Under the pieces are notes generated by a model, which was given only the letters and a program-made list of their open reading frames with translations, was not told the origin of the DNA and searched no databases. A stretch of 23,631 bases of DNA from a virus. The position numbers and the translations under genes were made by a program. The DNA lies in IMG/VR virus record IMGVR_UViG_3300025435_000095, positions 1 through 23,631 of that record. One strand, given 5' to 3'. Shown in pieces: positions 2,675 through 11,621 of the stretch (its first letter is position 1; the number at the start of each line of letters is the position of its first letter).

Positions 2675-3385
2675 TTAGCCCCCGTACCTCTTGAGCAGTG
2701 CGACAAAGTCCGATTCGTTTGCCGGTAATGGCCCTTCATAGCCTTTACTCCCATCGCTCACGATCAGCCAAGGCAGGCTTTTTCGTGGCCGTTTCATGGC
2801 CTCAACCCACAAGGCCCCATCGGCTGAAGCATCTATCTTCGAGTCAAAGAACCTCCATTCCGGGGTTTTCATATCCTGCCCACGGATGCAACGGGCGTTG
2901 AGATACTCGCTGACAGCCTTGGAAAATAGTGCGTTTTGCTGTGCTGCTGGCAACGTAGTCACTGTGAGGGTGTCATAGATCACCAGCACACGAAACCCCG
3001 GAGCAGGAATCGGAGCAGGGTCGGAAGGCGTTGGAGTCGGGGTTGGCTGTGGACCGGGAGCCGGAGCCGGATCAGGTTGTCCGCTGATCACGATTTCAGT
3101 TTCCGCAATATCGCTTGGCCCCGTTGCGTCGCTGGTGACTGCAAAAAGCCTGTATTTTCCGGGCTTCGTCGCCGTGACAATCGCGGTCTTAGTGTCTTTG
3201 AGCTGGTCCATCGGGAAAAGTTTCAGTTCCCGGTTATAGCTCTTCCATTTCACCACGGTTCCGGTCGTGGTGGCCGAAACCCGGAGAAAATCCCCTGGCT
3301 CGCCGGTGATAGTAGCCGGGAGGGTAAGGTCAGCGCCGAAGGCTGTGCCAGTGATCAGAGCAACAAGCAGACATAAACGAAACAT
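2675..3385 (-). CDS. Secreted Ig-like / Pro-rich / thioredoxin-like protein
   Basis: A 236-aa exported protein. Residues 1-18 form a signal peptide with a hydrophobic core and an A-F-G-A signal peptidase I-type site. Residues about 20-100 look like an Ig-like beta-sandwich; about 103-130 is a linker of Pro, Ala and Thr; about 132-236 is an alpha/beta domain with a beta strand RVLVIYD and a PWLIVSDG block that resembles a thioredoxin-like fold without a CxxC site. I recall this architecture from planctomycete proteins, which is the main hint to the host; this is memory, not a search. Start: the ATG at 3385 has GGGGG 8 nt upstream, while the TTG at 3400 lies inside that signal. It sits 4 nt after the preceding gene. 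An exported protein in the late operon could act in the periplasm during lysis or in superinfection exclusion. Confidence 0.75.
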   Translation of the reverse strand: MFRLCLLVALITGTAFGADLTLPATITGEPGDFLRVSATTTGTVVKWKSYNRELKLFPMDQLKDTKTAIVTATKPGKYRLFAVTSDATGPSDIAETEIVISGQPDPAPAPGPQPTPTPTPSDPAPIPAPGFRVLVIYDTLTVTTLPAAQQNALFSKAVSEYLNARCIRGQDMKTPEWRFFDSKIDASADGALWVEAMKRPRKSLPWLIVSDGSKGYEGPLPANESDFVALLKRYGG

Positions 3386-3389
3386 TGAA

Positions 3390-3638
3390 TTATCCCCCAA
3401 AAAACCACATTTTTACCAGCTGCCACGCTGTCGGATTGTGAATGATCGCGTGCGTCGATTGACTCATTTTCAGTTCATGCTGAATCCGTTCCGCATGGTT
3501 TTCAATCGCGTCGCATAAAAAGAATTTTTGATAACCGTAAATTGTTGGGAATTCCTTTTCGTATTTTTCTTCCATTACGTTTAGGGTCGCGTAAAGGACG
3601 CTTTTGACCTGATCGACCGACAATTCACCAGTTTTCAT
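3390..3638 (-). CDS. Small hypothetical protein
   Basis: An 82-aa soluble, mostly helical protein. The ATG at 3638 is chosen because AGGAG lies 7 nt upstream; the longer open frame above it overlaps the holin-like gene in another frame and is a shadow. It overlaps the stop region of that upstream gene by 4 nt and ends 4 nt before the secreted Ig/thioredoxin-like gene, so it belongs to the same transcript. It has His-rich spots in the second half (ENHAERIQHE, STHAIIHN) but no motif I can name. Confidence 0.7.
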   Translation of the reverse strand: MKTGELSVDQVKSVLYATLNVMEEKYEKEFPTIYGYQKFFLCDAIENHAERIQHELKMSQSTHAIIHNPTAWQLVKMWFFGG

Positions 3639-4260: not shown

Positions 4261-6633
4261 CTACTCGGCCCCCCATTTGCCCAGCGGGCAGGCCTCGGTG
4301 GCCAACAAAGTCTTCTTGTCCAATGGGCACCCGCATTCGCCACAAATGTCGTGGTTTCTGCTTGAACAAATCAAGCATAATTCCATACGTTTTTCCGCTG
4401 TGCGTTCGCTGGCAGGAGGTCTGCCAGCCAGGTTAAACCGGGCCATGGCCTTCGCGTAATTCATGGCCTGCCTGAACAAACTTGGGGCTTTCTTTTTGTC
4501 TTCTGATTGTCGCGACAACACCAAAAGACCGTTGTTGTTTCGATCATCGCGAATTACGATCCATTCAGGGAATGTTTTGATGAAGTTCCGCACGGCCGGG
4601 AGAATGCCAGCATTGCCATCTGGTCCCGTTTCTCGATAAGTCTCAGTATCGTGCAAAACGATATATCTTTTCACTTTCCCAGCATATTTCGACAATTCCA
4701 CGCATTTTTGATCGGCAGTGTGTACTGTATCGATGAACAGTAGATCCGTTTCATCAATATCCACCTCACCTGGCTTCCCGACCACGCTCGTAAAATTGGA
4801 AAGCCTTTTTTCATAGACATCCCATTCCGGCTTTCGCCCTGGCGCGATTGAAACAAACTTGGTTCCTGATTCCTGTGCCGCCAATGCAAACGATGGGCCC
4901 GCGCCGTTGATCCAAAAGGATAATTCTGTGACGTGCTGGCAAGTCGTGGCGAGGTCACAAAGTGTCGGCATGTGTTCATTTATGTCGACGGAATGTATCG
5001 TGGAATCCCGGTAAAGGTCTTCGATCCTCCGGTCATCGGATTGTTGTGCGGCCTTGCATGGCACGCATTCTTGAGGTTTCGGGGCTGGTGGATCGACTAC
5101 GCGAAGCGGTTCACCCTGCCAATAATCTCGATAATCACCCCAGTATCGGTGAAGCGTCTTGCCGTAGCTGTTGGGCTCATAGCACACTTCTCCATGCGAA
5201 GTGAACCGATGGGGGTGATTGATATGAATGGCGGGCTGCAACCCGTAATAGGGAATCCGATACCAGTCTTTTCGTTCGCCTTGCGGTTCGAGAAGACAAG
5301 ATCCATCCCGGTCGTGATCATGTTTAGCCCGGGCAAGATTGTCCTTAGCGAAATCCAATCGCATGGAAAGCTGGTGCATCGGTTCATGCCGCTCTTTCAC
5401 GGCGAGCCAGCCGGAGCCGTTAAGCCCCTCATAGTCCAGATTGGAAACCACGTTGCTGGCCGGTTCCGTCAAAAACGCTTCGGCTACCCGGTCAAAATAA
5501 TCTGCCGGATAAAGCACGTCATGTTCAAGGAAGCAGACGATATGAACGTCCCCGGCCATCTGGATCGCCTGGTTCATCTGGTCGATGATGCGGCCATGTC
5601 CTTTGGCTTTGCTCCGGCACAAATCAACCTTCCAAAGGTTCATGCCGACAATGATCTGTTGCACGCTGGCCGATAGTTTTACCTGGTGCTTGCTGGCCCT
5701 GGCTGCCTGCTCGATGGATCGGAGGGAAGCATCCATGCACCAATCAGGGGCCGCGTTGTTCGTGTACCAAATGGCACCAATCTTTAGCGTGCCTTTTTGT
5801 TTCCATGGCCGTGGCTGAAGGAATTCGGCTTCCTGCAAGCACCCGTCCCATTCGCCCGGCATGAGCCTTTTTCCGAAATGCTCGAAGATTTTATTCTCAG
5901 CATAAAGGCCCATTTCTCGATGACCGATAAGCAGATTGACCGTGTGGTCCCGGAGCCGTACCTGGTACGGGGCTGGATTTGCCGGACCTCTGAACCGATG
6001 CACCCATCGCGCGGAAGGCAGACAAACGACAGAGTTTCCGCGCTGGCGGTACTTCTCATGGATGTACCCTTCTTCGCCGCCGAATCCCCTGAAATGCTGA
6101 TTGAAACCGGGCCAGTATTTTTTATTGGCACAGAAAAAACCGAGGCCTTGCATGGGGATCGCAAAAGGTTTGTTCGTTTTTAATCCTTCATGATCGGTGG
6201 CCCATTCGCCCCACAAGGTTTTGCCCAGCTGAACTGGATTCCAGTGGGTCCACAAATGCTTGCCGTCGTCTCCCAGCAACGGGCCCTGAATCAAATCGCG
6301 TGAATCCCTATGCTCCTGAATCCACCATTCAAGATCGCGAATAGCGAACGCGCTGAACATGACATGAGAGTCCACCACGGCCACCCAGTCGGTTTCCGCA
6401 TACCGGAAAAGGGCGTCACGGCTTGCGCTGGTGCCAGCGAGATCGGGCCGGTGTACGTATTTGCCTCCGGCTGCCAGCGTCACGCCTTTGGTTTGCTCGC
6501 ATGGTTGCGGGGCGTTATCGAGTACCAGGATTTTAACTTCAGGATGATAGAGCTTCAGGCTTTGGGTCGTGAAATAGACGCCACTGAAATCGTCATATGA
6601 CGCCATGGCTACTGTTAAAATTTCGTCGCTCAT
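4261..6633 (-). CDS. Glycosyltransferase–glycosyltransferase–methyltransferase-like fusion
   Basis: A 790-aa protein that appears to join four parts. Residues about 5-240 look like a GT-A glycosyltransferase: TVAMASYDD strand, VVDSHVMF in the DxD position, and a GGEEGY block near 185-190 like that of GT2/GT27-type enzymes. Residues about 283-506 are a second GT-A-like unit (KIGAIWYTN start, LEHDVLYPAD at 369-378). Residues about 537-708 resemble a class I methyltransferase-like domain (FIDTVHTADQ near 633, IVLHDTETY near 657). The end carries C753, C756, C764, C767, C769 and C782 in a small zinc-ribbon-like pattern finishing in CPLGKW. No signal peptide. The ATG at 6633 has GGAG 7 nt upstream and lies 10 nt after the Thr-rich tail protein. 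It probably modifies a phage tail protein or host surface glycan; substrates unknown. Confidence 0.8.
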   Translation of the reverse strand: MSDEILTVAMASYDDFSGVYFTTQSLKLYHPEVKILVLDNAPQPCEQTKGVTLAAGGKYVHRPDLAGTSASRDALFRYAETDWVAVVDSHVMFSAFAIRDLEWWIQEHRDSRDLIQGPLLGDDGKHLWTHWNPVQLGKTLWGEWATDHEGLKTNKPFAIPMQGLGFFCANKKYWPGFNQHFRGFGGEEGYIHEKYRQRGNSVVCLPSARWVHRFRGPANPAPYQVRLRDHTVNLLIGHREMGLYAENKIFEHFGKRLMPGEWDGCLQEAEFLQPRPWKQKGTLKIGAIWYTNNAAPDWCMDASLRSIEQAARASKHQVKLSASVQQIIVGMNLWKVDLCRSKAKGHGRIIDQMNQAIQMAGDVHIVCFLEHDVLYPADYFDRVAEAFLTEPASNVVSNLDYEGLNGSGWLAVKERHEPMHQLSMRLDFAKDNLARAKHDHDRDGSCLLEPQGERKDWYRIPYYGLQPAIHINHPHRFTSHGEVCYEPNSYGKTLHRYWGDYRDYWQGEPLRVVDPPAPKPQECVPCKAAQQSDDRRIEDLYRDSTIHSVDINEHMPTLCDLATTCQHVTELSFWINGAGPSFALAAQESGTKFVSIAPGRKPEWDVYEKRLSNFTSVVGKPGEVDIDETDLLFIDTVHTADQKCVELSKYAGKVKRYIVLHDTETYRETGPDGNAGILPAVRNFIKTFPEWIVIRDDRNNNGLLVLSRQSEDKKKAPSLFRQAMNYAKAMARFNLAGRPPASERTAEKRMELCLICSSRNHDICGECGCPLDKKTLLATEACPLGKWGAE

Positions 6634-6643
6634 CCTAATCTCC

Positions 6644-8920
6644 TTAGCTTGGAACGCAACTGCAAGCATTATCCCCTGGTCCACACACATAAAGCGTATC
6701 GGTGGTGCCAGTATTTTTTCCGTAAACCATTTGACCGGCTGTTAATGTTCCCAACGATAAACAACAACAAATTGCATTATTTGTGCAATTTGTAATAACA
6801 GAGCCTCCACAAGTGGAAGTTTTTGCAGGCGAACCCCCGCCACTAGAACTACTGCCAACCGAATAAGTCCCTGCACTAGGTGCAATGAAATACCAGCTGG
6901 CCCCTGCTGCAACGGTGACACCTCCAGAAATCAGTTTGACACCACATGGTGCGGGCGTTGTCGTGCTGGTTGTTGTGGAGGTTGTAGTAGTTGGCCTTGC
7001 TGTAGTTGTCGTTGTAGTAGTTGTCGTTGTGGTTGTCGTTGTAGTAGTAGTTGTCGTAGTTGGTGCCGCTGTCGTGGTAGTCGTTGTTGTCGTCGTATTA
7101 GGTGCCGCTGTTGTTGTTGGCACGCATGGGTATTGAGTAGTTATGCCAATAGAGGCTGAACTACATAGCGAAGCCGGAGGCACGCCACTGCAACCGCAAT
7201 TTATTCTGCATGGTGCTGTTAGGTTCCAAAATGGAATCGAAAAACCAGTGCAAGCATAAAAACAATTACCAGAGCAATTGGGATTGTAGGTTGTGCTTGT
7301 TGTGCTTGTTGTGCTTGTGGTAGTGCCCATGGGCGTGCAATTGGTCGAACAATTGGCCAGATAATTACCTGGATAACACGTTCCACATTTTCCCAATACG
7401 CCTACAACATCGGCAGGACACCCGCAACCATTAGTGCATGTGTTTGTTATCCCATGCCAGACTCCATCAGCGCCGCACGAATAAAGGCAAATTCCGCTAC
7501 CGCAATTCGGTTGTGGCGTCGTGCTGGTGCTCGTCGTACTGGTCGTGGTCGTGGTGTAGGGAAGATTGTCGCAAGTCGTGGTCGCACTGTCGCAATTGCT
7601 GGTACTGGCCCTGGCTGGCGGGTTGATACACCCGCACGGTGAACCGCAGCAATCGGCCCGCACGGCGGTCCAACCTCCGGATCCATTCCCTTGCCAGGTG
7701 CATTGGCCGCAGCAATTGCCGTTGCAGGTGCTGCAAGGCGGGTTGGTGGTTCGCGGTGGCGTGGTGGTCGGTGCGGTGGTCGTCGTGGTCCCGGAACATG
7801 GGCCATAACCGGTGATATTTCCGCATGGCCCATAAATCGGGCATGGGCCGGTATTGGAAGAGCAATAGCAAGGCATGGCTTTGACGGTGCCGCAACTGCA
7901 AGATTCGGTGGGAGGGGAAGAAATGCAATTCGGGCTGCAAACTGTCCCCGTCGGACAGTATCCGGACAACCATTGCCATTTATTCGCCTGGTTGCACCAG
8001 TATTGAACCGAACCGGTGCAAGGCACAGGAGGTGGGGCATTAACCGGAGCGGAACAGCTGGTGGTGGCCGTGGCGCAATAGGTGGGCGGGATTGTCGGAG
8101 GTGGACAAGGGCAGCAGGATGGGCAACCACTGGTTGCCTGAATCCATCCGTACACGCCCGATTGCAACAACTGCGATTGCCATTGGCAAGAGCCTTGGCA
8201 TTGCGGCGGCAATGTGGTCGTGCTGGTCGTAGTCGTGCCAGGTGCGGCCGTCGTGCAAATCACTGGCCCGGGCCCAGGTGCTGGCACGCAGCTGGTTTGG
8301 GTTATCTGACAAGCGAATGCCCCGCAAAAATCAGGCGGGTGCGGAACGCAACCGCTGGAGCAGGTATTGCCGGTGGCTGACCAACTACTGCTACTGGCTG
8401 ACCACGACCAAGAACCGGTGCCGGTGCATGGCGGCATGGTGGTGCTGGTCGTGCTGGTCGTGCTTGTGCTAGTGGTAGCCGGGGTGACACAAATGTCCGA
8501 AATCGTATAGATGGGAAGGCCATCCATCCAGATTCCGGACAAAAGCGCGGAATAAACGCCGTTGACTACAGGAGCCATCAGCATGACAAGCCAACAATCC
8601 TGAGTGCCATCGGCGAAAGGAATGTATTTGCAGGTTGGCGGGGCTGCCGTGGTCGTGCTGGTCGATGGCTTCGGCGTGGTGCTGCTGGTCGTGCTGCTGG
8701 TCGACGTAACCGGAAGGAAATAAACCTGAACTCCCGGATACATGCCATTGGAAGGCGTGGTGCTGAGGACCTGAACAAGCCCGGATCGAGCATCACGGCC
8801 ACCGGCAACAGCTGGTCGGGGTGAATCAGGATATAAAGGCCGTTTTTCGACCGTGCGGACAACGTCCCCGATGCGGATAACGGAATGTTCGTCGAATGTC
8901 CATGGCCTCGGGTCACTCAT
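6644..8920 (-). CDS. Thr-rich, Cys-rich modular tail protein (putative fibre/adhesin)
   Basis: A 758-aa protein starting at the ATG that overlaps the upstream stop (ATGA). Residues 1-75 form a polar N-terminal domain, probably the virion attachment end. After that come about six Cys-rich modules of 50-80 aa sharing the sketch C-x-C/W…W…C-x(2-3)-C-x-C-x-x-P…C, separated by linkers made of Thr with Ser, Pro and Ala. The longest linker, at about 595-655, is close to pure Thr. The last 100 aa are a Gly/Ser/Cys-rich beta-like domain. The pattern suggests disulfide-linked heads on stiff, possibly O-glycosylated stalks, as in mucins. Position after the tape measure and one other virion gene fits a tail-tip fibre or host-binding protein. 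No known fibre domain recognised; the role is inferred. Confidence 0.7.
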   Translation of the reverse strand: MSDPRPWTFDEHSVIRIGDVVRTVEKRPLYPDSPRPAVAGGRDARSGLVQVLSTTPSNGMYPGVQVYFLPVTSTSSTTSSTTPKPSTSTTTAAPPTCKYIPFADGTQDCWLVMLMAPVVNGVYSALLSGIWMDGLPIYTISDICVTPATTSTSTTSTTSTTMPPCTGTGSWSWSASSSSWSATGNTCSSGCVPHPPDFCGAFACQITQTSCVPAPGPGPVICTTAAPGTTTTSTTTLPPQCQGSCQWQSQLLQSGVYGWIQATSGCPSCCPCPPPTIPPTYCATATTSCSAPVNAPPPVPCTGSVQYWCNQANKWQWLSGYCPTGTVCSPNCISSPPTESCSCGTVKAMPCYCSSNTGPCPIYGPCGNITGYGPCSGTTTTTAPTTTPPRTTNPPCSTCNGNCCGQCTWQGNGSGGWTAVRADCCGSPCGCINPPARASTSNCDSATTTCDNLPYTTTTTSTTSTSTTPQPNCGSGICLYSCGADGVWHGITNTCTNGCGCPADVVGVLGKCGTCYPGNYLANCSTNCTPMGTTTSTTSTTSTTYNPNCSGNCFYACTGFSIPFWNLTAPCRINCGCSGVPPASLCSSASIGITTQYPCVPTTTAAPNTTTTTTTTTAAPTTTTTTTTTTTTTTTTTTTTARPTTTTSTTTSTTTPAPCGVKLISGGVTVAAGASWYFIAPSAGTYSVGSSSSGGGSPAKTSTCGGSVITNCTNNAICCCLSLGTLTAGQMVYGKNTGTTDTLYVCGPGDNACSCVPS
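6955..7120 (-). repeat. Low-complexity ACN (Thr) codon tract
   Basis: An imperfect trinucleotide tract inside the Thr-rich tail gene, coding for a run of Thr broken by a few Ala, Pro, Arg and Ser. On the plus strand it reads as GTN/GTT triplets. Smaller tracts of the same kind lie at about 7290-7322, 7510-7560, 7741-7795, 8205-8250, 8440-8480 and 8648-8705. Because the unit is three bases, replication slippage would change linker length without breaking the frame. Confidence 0.8.
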
Positions 8921-10038
8921 GACGTAGGTAGTCCCAATGGAGCAAAGGGCAGCATTTTGTAAGTCTGAAATCGAAGAAAATAAGGCTGAAGGACGACCAC
9001 GGCACCAATTGCGTGGGCTGCTGGAATTGTACCAGCCCATCCGCGTGTCACTGACCAGGTTCCCGCGTTGGTCCGGGTCACCTGCATGATTTCATTGTCT
9101 ACTTTCACCTCAAAATAAAAATGCGGGGGAGGTGTCGCGGCAATCGTGCCATAGGTGGCCAGTGGCGGGAATTTAAAAGCGTCGGCCGCTGGCACTCCGA
9201 TGACTGTGTCATTAACCAGACAATTGGTGGCGAGCGTAGTCGTCCCGGTCGTCAACCGCTGCCCCCACCCATTCAGCATGGTGGGGTTGCTCAAAACGGC
9301 TTGCGTTTGAAGATCCTTGAAAGCGTAGCCGTTGACGTCGGTCCAGCCCATATCCTGGACAAATTGGTAATAGCTTTCACGCCTGAATTCAATTTCGTAA
9401 CTGACCCGGTAGTAAATCAGGCCAATATCCTGCTGCTTTACCCCAGTGATCGAATTGATTTTCGCTTGCCCAGGAATGCCAGGGCCAAAAATATCGCTGT
9501 TTACTGCGTCCTGATAGGTGATGGCGTTTGCCGAATTAAAGGTCGCTTCATTTCGAGAAATAACAAGAGTAGGTCGACTATCATCGGCAACCACCGGAGG
9601 GTCGAACAGCCTACCCGCTGAATTCACGATCGGAACGCCCAAGAGGTCTCGGGGCATCGGTTTTTCGTATTTCGCAAACGACCATTGCAATTCTGCTGGC
9701 AAATTTAGCGGGTTCGTGATCGTGGCGTCAACGAGCCTATCGGTGTCGTATTCAGCCGTGACTTGCCACAACAAAGGCCATTCACCGTAAGGAGTGCAAT
9801 CAACCGAAACACACGTAGCCAGGGCATCGGTGTCGTTACCTACGGTGTAACTGTCACCGATTTGAGGAATGCCACCGGAAGCGTAGATCGTGGCGGGTCC
9901 GTCGTTGATGTCGGTAGTGGAAACAAGGAAAATCTTGCGGTATTTGCGATTAGTGAGCTCAAAAACAGAGTTTTTCCGCTCGCTGGCAAATGTGCCTGCC
10001 CGTCCGGCCTTCGTCAGCTGAATCGAAGAAACCGCCAT
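8917..10038 (-). CDS. Virion structural protein, probable distal tail component
   Basis: A 373-aa protein starting at the ATG that overlaps the tape measure stop (TAATG) and ending in an ATGA overlap with the Thr-rich tail gene, so all three are coupled. The N-terminal part is beta-rich. Near the C-terminus, a block with NEIMQVTR followed by WSVTRGWAGT and AAHAIGAVV resembles a short module found in many phage fibre and baseplate proteins. Its position directly after the tape measure is where Dit or Tal proteins usually lie, but I see no signature of either. A tail-tip or baseplate structural role is the best guess. A longer open frame upstream to 10323 overlaps the tape measure gene and is rejected. 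Confidence 0.72.
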   Translation of the reverse strand: MAVSSIQLTKAGRAGTFASERKNSVFELTNRKYRKIFLVSTTDINDGPATIYASGGIPQIGDSYTVGNDTDALATCVSVDCTPYGEWPLLWQVTAEYDTDRLVDATITNPLNLPAELQWSFAKYEKPMPRDLLGVPIVNSAGRLFDPPVVADDSRPTLVISRNEATFNSANAITYQDAVNSDIFGPGIPGQAKINSITGVKQQDIGLIYYRVSYEIEFRRESYYQFVQDMGWTDVNGYAFKDLQTQAVLSNPTMLNGWGQRLTTGTTTLATNCLVNDTVIGVPAADAFKFPPLATYGTIAATPPPHFYFEVKVDNEIMQVTRTNAGTWSVTRGWAGTIPAAHAIGAVVVLQPYFLRFQTYKMLPFAPLGLPTS

Positions 10039-11621
10039 TACAGGATCCTCGCTACCTGTGGAGAAACCGTTGCAGCTTCGGCCAATCTGCGCTGATATTC
10101 CAGCTGCTGCCGTTCGATTTCGAGGGATTGCTCGGCAATCCGCTGCAATCTCTGGTCCGGAGTTTCCCGGGAATAGGTTTCTTGTGCCTCCGCTTTTGCG
10201 GCCGCTGAATAGGCCTCCACGGTGCCCCGGCTCGTCGCTCCAGCCAATTGTACGGATCGCAATTCGTGAGCTTTTTCGAGTTCGTCCACGGCCTTGGAAA
10301 TGCCCCTGGCGTAGGTGTCCCATGAAATGGCACCAGCCTGCAAAGCCGAATCCAGTTTTTGCAATTCCGACTGGTATTTCTGTAAAGGCGTGGCCAAAGA
10401 TTCGTTCAGTTCCTCGCCTATTTTAAACAATTCAGCATGTTTCGACAATTCGGTTAGACTTCCGGCCGCGTTTCGCGTGTGTTCGATTGATTTTGCTGCC
10501 TGTTCGGCCTGTTCGCTGATTTGCCTAAATTTTTCAGGCATTTTTAAACGATTGTCGGCCGTATCGAACAGGTTTTGAGCTTCGGCACTCATTTCAGCTG
10601 CAGCCAAGGCCATGGCGGCCGTGAAATCGTCGGCCATTTTCTTGGTTTCGGCAAAAAGTTTGCCGCCCAACGAATCGGGCAAGCTGCTTGCGAGGTCAAA
10701 AAGCCCGGAAACACCGGAAGAAATCTGGGCAATTCCCCCCATGAAGGTCGAGACCATGCCTTCGAGGGCCGATCGGACCACTTGCACGACGTCCAGTACT
10801 ACTCCAACAGCATAGGCCGCCGTTTCCATTCCCGATCGAATGATGGCCGTGCCTGTTTTTCCAGATAAGCCCATGCTTTCGAGGTAGTCGATAACCAAGT
10901 TGATAACTGGCGCCAAAGCAATTCCAAATTGACCGGCGAGATTGCTGACGTAGTCGGATAAACGACCGAAAGCCAGATTCATGCTTTCTACTTGGGCGAC
11001 GCTTAAATCATTGACCGAAGCCCCAAGCCCTTCCATGGACGCTTTGGCTTTCGCTATTCCTGCCCCGCCTTGCGTCAGAAGAGGTAAAAGCGTTTTAGCT
11101 TTGTCGTCGAAAATGGCGTAAGCTGCTGCCGCTCGTTGAGTCGGGTTTTCAATCTTGCTGATGGCGTCGGCCACCGCGCTGAATTGCTGTTCCAAGTTCA
11201 TGCCGGCAAGCTCTTTTGCAGACAATCCAATCCGGTCAAAAGCGTTGTTGGTGGCGATGTTGCCGGCATTTGCTCCGGCCACTGCCTTGGACATCGCCTC
11301 AAGCCCAGCCGCTGCGTTGCCGGCATCGCCTCCGAGATCCTTTACGCCCTGTTTTACCGTGTTAATGAAATTGCTGGTAGTCCCGAGATTGCGAGCCAAG
11401 TGGAGCGTCTCGACGCTAGCGTCTAAAGCGTTTTTTACATAGCCAGTCAGGGCACCCGTAGCAAGACCCGCAATCAGAGCCTTGCCAGCCAATAACATTC
11501 GGTCAAGATCGTTCCATGTTTTGCTGAACTGCTTAGTAATTTGCTGAGCCGCGCTCATGGCTTTGGCGAATTCGCTGGTGGACGCTGTCAACGTCGCATG
11601 TAGTTTACCGATTGTCGGCAT
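10038..11621 (-). CDS. Tail tape measure protein
   Basis: A 527-aa, Ala-rich, helical protein. The N-terminal 1-60 (TLTASTSEFAKAMSAAQQ…) is the usual start of phage tape measure proteins that act as scaffold and ruler of the tail; the middle (about 230-330) has hydrophobic helices with Gly, as in tape measures that insert into membrane; the C-terminal 400-515 is a charged coiled-coil. GGAGG lies 11 nt upstream of the ATG, which overlaps the chaperone T frame by 17 nt. At roughly 0.15 nm per residue it would set a tail of about 80 nm, which is short for a siphovirus. No muralytic domain was seen in it. Confidence 0.9.
   Translation of the reverse strand: MPTIGKLHATLTASTSEFAKAMSAAQQITKQFSKTWNDLDRMLLAGKALIAGLATGALTGYVKNALDASVETLHLARNLGTTSNFINTVKQGVKDLGGDAGNAAAGLEAMSKAVAGANAGNIATNNAFDRIGLSAKELAGMNLEQQFSAVADAISKIENPTQRAAAAYAIFDDKAKTLLPLLTQGGAGIAKAKASMEGLGASVNDLSVAQVESMNLAFGRLSDYVSNLAGQFGIALAPVINLVIDYLESMGLSGKTGTAIIRSGMETAAYAVGVVLDVVQVVRSALEGMVSTFMGGIAQISSGVSGLFDLASSLPDSLGGKLFAETKKMADDFTAAMALAAAEMSAEAQNLFDTADNRLKMPEKFRQISEQAEQAAKSIEHTRNAAGSLTELSKHAELFKIGEELNESLATPLQKYQSELQKLDSALQAGAISWDTYARGISKAVDELEKAHELRSVQLAGATSRGTVEAYSAAAKAEAQETYSRETPDQRLQRIAEQSLEIERQQLEYQRRLAEAATVSPQVARIL

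Follow-up and report, generated by a model that had tools for sequence, protein, structure and literature searches.

A mucin-like protein and a polypeptide GalNAc-transferase-like enzyme as a candidate acceptor–enzyme pair in a phage tail module

Gene order in the tail module

The window analysed here, a stretch of 23,631 nucleotides from an uncultured virus record (IMGVR_UViG_3300025435_000095), is a tailed-phage structural block encoded mostly on the minus strand, in which genes for the terminase, portal, protease, capsid, tail proteins and tape measure were identified. All window features described below lie on the minus strand. The tape measure gene (10038..11621; phrog_9483, E 1e-30) places the gene pair of interest, i.e., a threonine-rich gene and the enzyme gene that follows it, in the tail module. 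The gene directly upstream of the pair (8917..10038) gives a short C-terminal match to the phrog_1101 tail protein (E 9e-7), and its stop codon TGA shares bases with the start codon of the threonine-rich gene (ATGA). A longer ORF, extending to 9040, is possible for the threonine-rich gene; the ATG at 8920 is the one that overlaps the upstream stop. The tail protein P0003 found no match among cultured phages. The original prediction had described the threonine-rich gene (6644..8920) as followed after 10 nt by an enzyme gene (4261..6633), and this was confirmed: 10 nt separate the threonine-rich stop codon from the enzyme ATG at 6633, and a Shine–Dalgarno-like AAGGAG read from the sequence (TAAGGAGA, 6639..6646) overlaps that stop codon.

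Two further genes of the window were recorded. One (1638–2465) gives a papain-family (C1) cysteine protease match in this phage genome, with 24.3 bits against a Pfam cut-off of 20.7, and the 241-residue product of the other (2675–3400), which has no clear family, begins like a signal peptide and contains a Pro/Thr-rich linker.

The threonine- and cysteine-rich protein

The product of the threonine-rich gene (MSDPRPW..., 758 residues) is recognised by composition as a mucin-like protein, with 155 Thr (20.4%) and 68 Cys (9%), arranged as Cys-rich modules with Thr/Ser/Pro linkers between them and with nine T/S/P/A tracts in total. Its Thr fraction peaks at 0.825 in a 40-residue window, whereas none of the other window genes that were checked exceeds 0.30, and the main poly-Thr tract covers residues 609–658 of the translation (TTTTTTTTTAAPTTTT..., 6947..7096). 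The 155 Thr residues are encoded by all four ACN codons, intermingled along the gene, which argues against a slippage artefact and makes selection on the protein the simplest reading. Judging from the position of its gene, the protein is probably structural and located at or near the tail tip. The original prediction had proposed glycosylation of a tail fibre; the tail location is borne out by the tape measure and tail protein genes upstream, whereas the gene order shows neither that the protein is a "tail fibre" nor that it is part of the virion.

Within the Thr tracts, T-x-A-P is enriched, with 39 occurrences observed against 3.8 expected from shuffling. A characterised animal ppGalNAc-T favours Thr with an adjacent Pro (PMC4245494). 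However, the motif was rejected as proof of GalNAc-transferase specificity, since its excess is at least as strong in the tracts beside phrog_4417, the second family discussed below, and it is thus no evidence for one enzyme class.

Glycosyltransferase domain 1 of the enzyme

The enzyme (MSDEILTV..., 790 residues) comprises four domains, ordered here by HMM. The two glycosyltransferase-like domains and one methyltransferase-like domain of the original prediction were found again, together with a zinc-ribbon-like Cys motif that it had missed. Domain 1 (GTa, 5788..6633) is matched by the Pfam GT2 family with E 8e-6, above the cut-off, and carries a DSH motif (of the DXH type), a GGEE motif and a later His. 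Its AF2 model (pLDDT 92.6) has the fold of a ppGalNAc-T GT-A catalytic domain: in a structural search with this model, the 29 best chains were all ppGalNAc-Ts (Z 24.0–19.8), followed by B4GALNT1 at 18.7. A single-sequence search of the PDB gave no match, and a profile was built from 37 relatives. This profile matches the N-terminal half of several GT2 enzymes (best 6h1j, E 2e-7), and the matches that extend through the C-terminal half are GalNAc-T1, T4, T7, T10 and T12, plus a marginal Toxoplasma enzyme (E 1.4). D88, H90 and H212, i.e., the DXH motif and the later His, which we take to be metal-binding residues, are invariant in the 37 relatives, and the DSH and later His align with those of GalNAc-T10 in the profile match. 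The peptide YIHEKYRQ, also invariant in alignment A1, was discarded as an artefact, as it had served as a search pattern and is therefore invariant by construction. By profile and model, domain 1 is predicted to resemble the polypeptide O-GalNAc-transferases rather than a generic glycosyltransferase.

The likeness to the GT27 ppGalNAc-Ts of animals and Toxoplasma comprises the GT-A fold (Z 20–24 over ~255 residues), DXH, the later His and GGE, as well as a proposed acceptor that is a Thr/Pro-rich, mucin-like protein. However, sequence identity is ~15%, and the window enzyme is phage-encoded and fused to GTb, methyltransferase-fold and Cys-motif domains. No Pfam match to a C-terminal ricin-type lectin domain was found, these domains following domain 1 instead, and the N-terminal transmembrane anchor and stem are absent, the translation from the ATG at 6633 having the catalytic domain at its very start. 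Nor does the translation show an obvious membrane segment. A snail ppGalNAc-T mutant without its lectin domain is still active (PMC4245494). Given the absence of the lectin domain and the membrane anchor, and an activity that is only predicted, the enzyme is filed here as ppGalNAc-T-like, not as a member of GT27.

The remaining three domains

Domain 2 (GTb, 5056..5790) is GT2-like and carries an EHD motif, with a weak Pfam GT2 match (E 0.0017, below the cut-off). It is also present in locus L195, described below, and forms a separate gene behind a poly-Thr gene in L075; a lax tblastn search with it among cultured phages gave chance-level matches.

The third domain (4453..5022) was modelled by AF2 with pLDDT 93.2, and the model shows the Rossmann fold of a class I SAM-dependent methyltransferase, its best structural match being the O-methyltransferase 8c9v (Z 17.7, rmsd 3.2 over 166 residues), with MeT1 at Z 16.4. 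The methyltransferase identity rests on this fold search. A profile of the domain gave only weak matches to unrelated cysteine desulfurases, which were rejected, and the window copy has no Pfam methyltransferase match. The glycine-rich SAM motif I is absent from this copy, which reads ELSFWINGAGPS; many relatives read K-R-R-E-S at this place, and a minority (e.g., L006 and L182, which match Methyltransf_24) keep ELG.ARGGST. The methyl-capped sugars that the original prediction envisaged are thus weakly supported, at the level of the fold, and the degenerate SAM motif I of the window copy and many relatives makes methylation doubtful here.

The C-terminal zinc-ribbon-like Cys motif (4273..4401) matches phrog_13558 with E 4e-11 and DUF6171 below the cut-off. 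The motif also occurs as a small stand-alone ORF just downstream of poly-Thr genes (L060:1614-1883, L123:5785-6045).

Gene neighbourhoods of GTa relatives

A search of viral contigs with the whole enzyme found none, the patterns being too specific, and domain 1 alone retrieved 53 viral loci, 30 of them non-redundant at 80% identity and 29 of these with an upstream gene. Their architectures range from GTa alone through GTa-MT and GTa-MT-ZN to the full four-domain form. GTa has no PHROG of its own, and no relative was found among 50,697 cultured phage records, in which a single match was confined to the C-terminal region.

Co-occurrence of the two genes in relatives had been set beforehand as the refutation test of the original prediction, and the pair was found to recur. 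With genes from a mechanical gene caller and a Thr-rich ORF defined by at least 35% Thr in 40 residues, a Thr-rich gene stands at position −1 of GTa in 15 of the 29 non-redundant viral loci, compared with 7/502 at other positions (Fisher 2e-16), positions that span the whole locus, so that the background is that of these very phages rather than of phages in general. Since the loci were picked by their glycosyltransferase sequence, the neighbouring gene was not selected for; relatedness was handled by the 80% identity filter only. The distance between the two genes is usually 10–50 nt, and the upstream neighbours in these loci include tape measure, tail and tail-fibre families. Among contigs from bacterial genomes, which include many planctomycete MAGs, a Thr-rich gene was likewise found at −1 in 6/13 (4/145 elsewhere). 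With the threshold used, by which Ser-rich partners (e.g., in L010) scored negative, no Thr-rich gene stands at −1 in about half of the non-redundant GTa loci; in some of them it is found at −2 to −4, in others it is missing altogether, and in others again the neighbours are unrelated genes.

The nearest relative by architecture, L195, was retrieved with GT domain 2 only. It presents the same pair, in the order tape measure, tail genes, a 734-residue Thr/Cys-rich protein, a gap of 19 nt, the four-domain enzyme and a Methyltransf_24 protein. Another setting is seen at L176:6990-8822 (Brucella sp. 21LCYQ03), where GTa is fused behind what appears by eye to be an HPr-kinase-type-like ATPase domain; this GTa has no Thr-rich upstream gene, and its surroundings are unlike a phage tail module.

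Converse sampling and phrog_4417

A converse sample consisted of viral contigs with twelve consecutive Thr codons, drawn without reference to glycosyltransferases. GTa, GTb or phrog_4417 lay within 1.2 kb downstream of the poly-Thr gene in 14/66 loci whose contigs extended far enough downstream, and upstream in 0/71 (Fisher 2e-5), a count that is partly post hoc in that phrog_4417 was first recognised in this same sample. Three cases in the sample, all at 12 nt, involve GTa and are not post hoc. The enzyme–substrate link, which the original prediction had offered as an inference from adjacency, is strongly supported by position, i.e., by the specificity for −1 and by this downstream bias.

In a fresh homology scan with phrog_4417, a Thr-rich gene stood at −1 in 17 of 25 non-redundant loci and in 19/177 positions elsewhere. 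Among cultured phages the family is present in 74 records, and a poly-Thr tract was found in the gene directly upstream in all ten sampled. Such pairs occur in Enterococcus, Lactococcus, Lactobacillus and Staphylococcus phages (e.g., L278:2345-3909, L281:1708-3867, L280:2620-3879), and the poly-Thr partner is, for example, the major tail protein in Enterococcus phage phiFL1A and the capsid protein in Lactococcus phage CHPC836. The gene order is that of the window, a Thr-rich protein followed a few nt later by a putative glycosyltransferase; however, phrog_4417 has no detectable sequence relation to GTa. PHROGs annotates it as of unknown function, and its DxD motif is invariant. Its identification as a known glycosyltransferase family was rejected: no Pfam match was found and its PDB matches were at chance level, for which reason the assignment stays putative. 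From the DxD motif and the genomic context, phrog_4417 is a putative second glycosyltransferase family and a candidate for a virion-modifying one.

At the C-terminus of two major tail proteins (L282:964-1726, L287:1035-1737) stands a short run of Thr, TTTTTTTTP*, and an overlapping next ORF in another frame carries on with long Thr repeats. This overlap suggests a programmed frameshift that would add a Thr-rich extension.

Interpretation and alternative explanations

The reading that we favour, with a probability of roughly three in four, is that the Thr-rich protein and the enzyme form a matched acceptor–enzyme pair in a phage tail operon, serving self-glycosylation. The Thr/Cys-rich protein would be made first, and GT domain 1, acting as a cytoplasmic GT-A enzyme, would transfer a sugar to the hydroxyl groups of linker Thr (and Ser) residues. 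This sugar would probably be a HexNAc from a UDP-sugar donor, added in the cytoplasm either ahead of tail assembly or in its course, and the glycan would then probably be extended by GT domain 2. In relatives with a preserved SAM site, modification of the glycan may fall to the methyltransferase-fold domain, whose role in the window copy may be confined to binding. Candidate benefits are the protection of an extended protein or an altered recognition of surfaces.

Alternatively, the glycosyltransferase may act on virion proteins generally, such as capsid and tail tube, or on some other partner, the Thr-rich protein being a flexible spacer that shares its operon. Capsid and tail tube proteins are known targets of mycobacteriophage glycosyltransferases (PMC12363180, PMC12619734), and the GTa loci that lack a Thr-rich gene directly upstream would fit such a broad target. 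However, the −1 position is specific for the Thr-rich gene, and the independent phrog_4417 family has the same kind of partner, which is sometimes a capsid or major tail protein with a Thr tail; we therefore regard a general virion target as unlikely. A target outside the virion, either a host surface glycan (for serotype conversion or superinfection exclusion) or the phage DNA, with an incidental place in the tail operon, appears quite improbable. Phage glycosyltransferases with such roles exist (PMC12619734), and among the 37 GTa relatives there is one weak match (E 5e-4) to a PHROG called GtrB-like O-antigen conversion, but the fold and the full-length profile matches point to polypeptide glycosyltransferases rather than to lipid-carrier or DNA ones, the translation shows no apparent membrane segment, and the enzyme sits in a late tail module with overlapping genes.

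The Thr tracts could also be products of low-complexity drift or slippage, their association with glycosyltransferases reflecting mosaic exchange of tail-tip genes. Low-complexity linkers are common, and tail-tip genes are exchanged as cassettes. However, the mixed synonymous Thr codons argue against slippage, and the adjacency holds with two glycosyltransferase families, in divergent phages and with homologous enzymes down to ~30% identity, making this explanation very improbable. The matched pair thus remains the preferred reading.

Comparison with known systems and significance

Glycosylation of virions by mycobacteriophage glycosyltransferases is established, so that the kind of system proposed here is known. 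The mycobacteriophages Che8, Corndog and Myrna glycosylate their own structural proteins with phage-encoded glycosyltransferases (PMC12363180), and in the window, too, a glycosyltransferase is genetically linked to a protein whose structural role is read from its position. On visual inspection, Che8 gp108 likewise seems to combine a glycosyltransferase with a methyltransferase-like domain. However, the Che8 glycosyltransferases are unconvincing with the GTa profile (best 3.7 bits), the C-termini of the Che8 capsid and major tail proteins are short and not poly-Thr, and the glycosyltransferase genes lie far from the structural genes. In open-licence papers, neither a phage ppGalNAc-T-like enzyme nor poly-Thr structural proteins beside glycosyltransferases were found, and within that literature three elements look new, namely the class of enzyme, its mucin-like partner and their conserved arrangement as a gene pair.

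More broadly, these pairs may represent a general viral mucin system, in which tailed phages of many hosts would encode, immediately after each structural protein with poly-Thr tracts or tails, a dedicated polypeptide O-glycosyltransferase. At least two families would supply these enzymes, one of them structurally a ppGalNAc-T; we put this forward tentatively, at slightly less than even odds. The initiating step of mucin-type O-glycosylation is generally considered a trait of eukaryotes. If the generalisation is true, such glycosylation exists, and might even have arisen, outside eukaryotes. A phage enzyme with this fold and these motifs, paired with a Thr-rich acceptor, would offer a compact, cytoplasmic O-glycosylation system that can be expressed in bacteria, and would reveal how extended structural proteins are armoured by phages. 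Since phrog_4417 pairs are present in cultured Lactococcus, Lactobacillus and Enterococcus phages, the general idea is testable at once. For the GTa family, a possible cultivable source is Chthoniobacter flavus Ellin428, an isolate in whose genome a GTa gene (L187:6783-9104) lies a little downstream of a Thr-rich ORF, possibly in a prophage.
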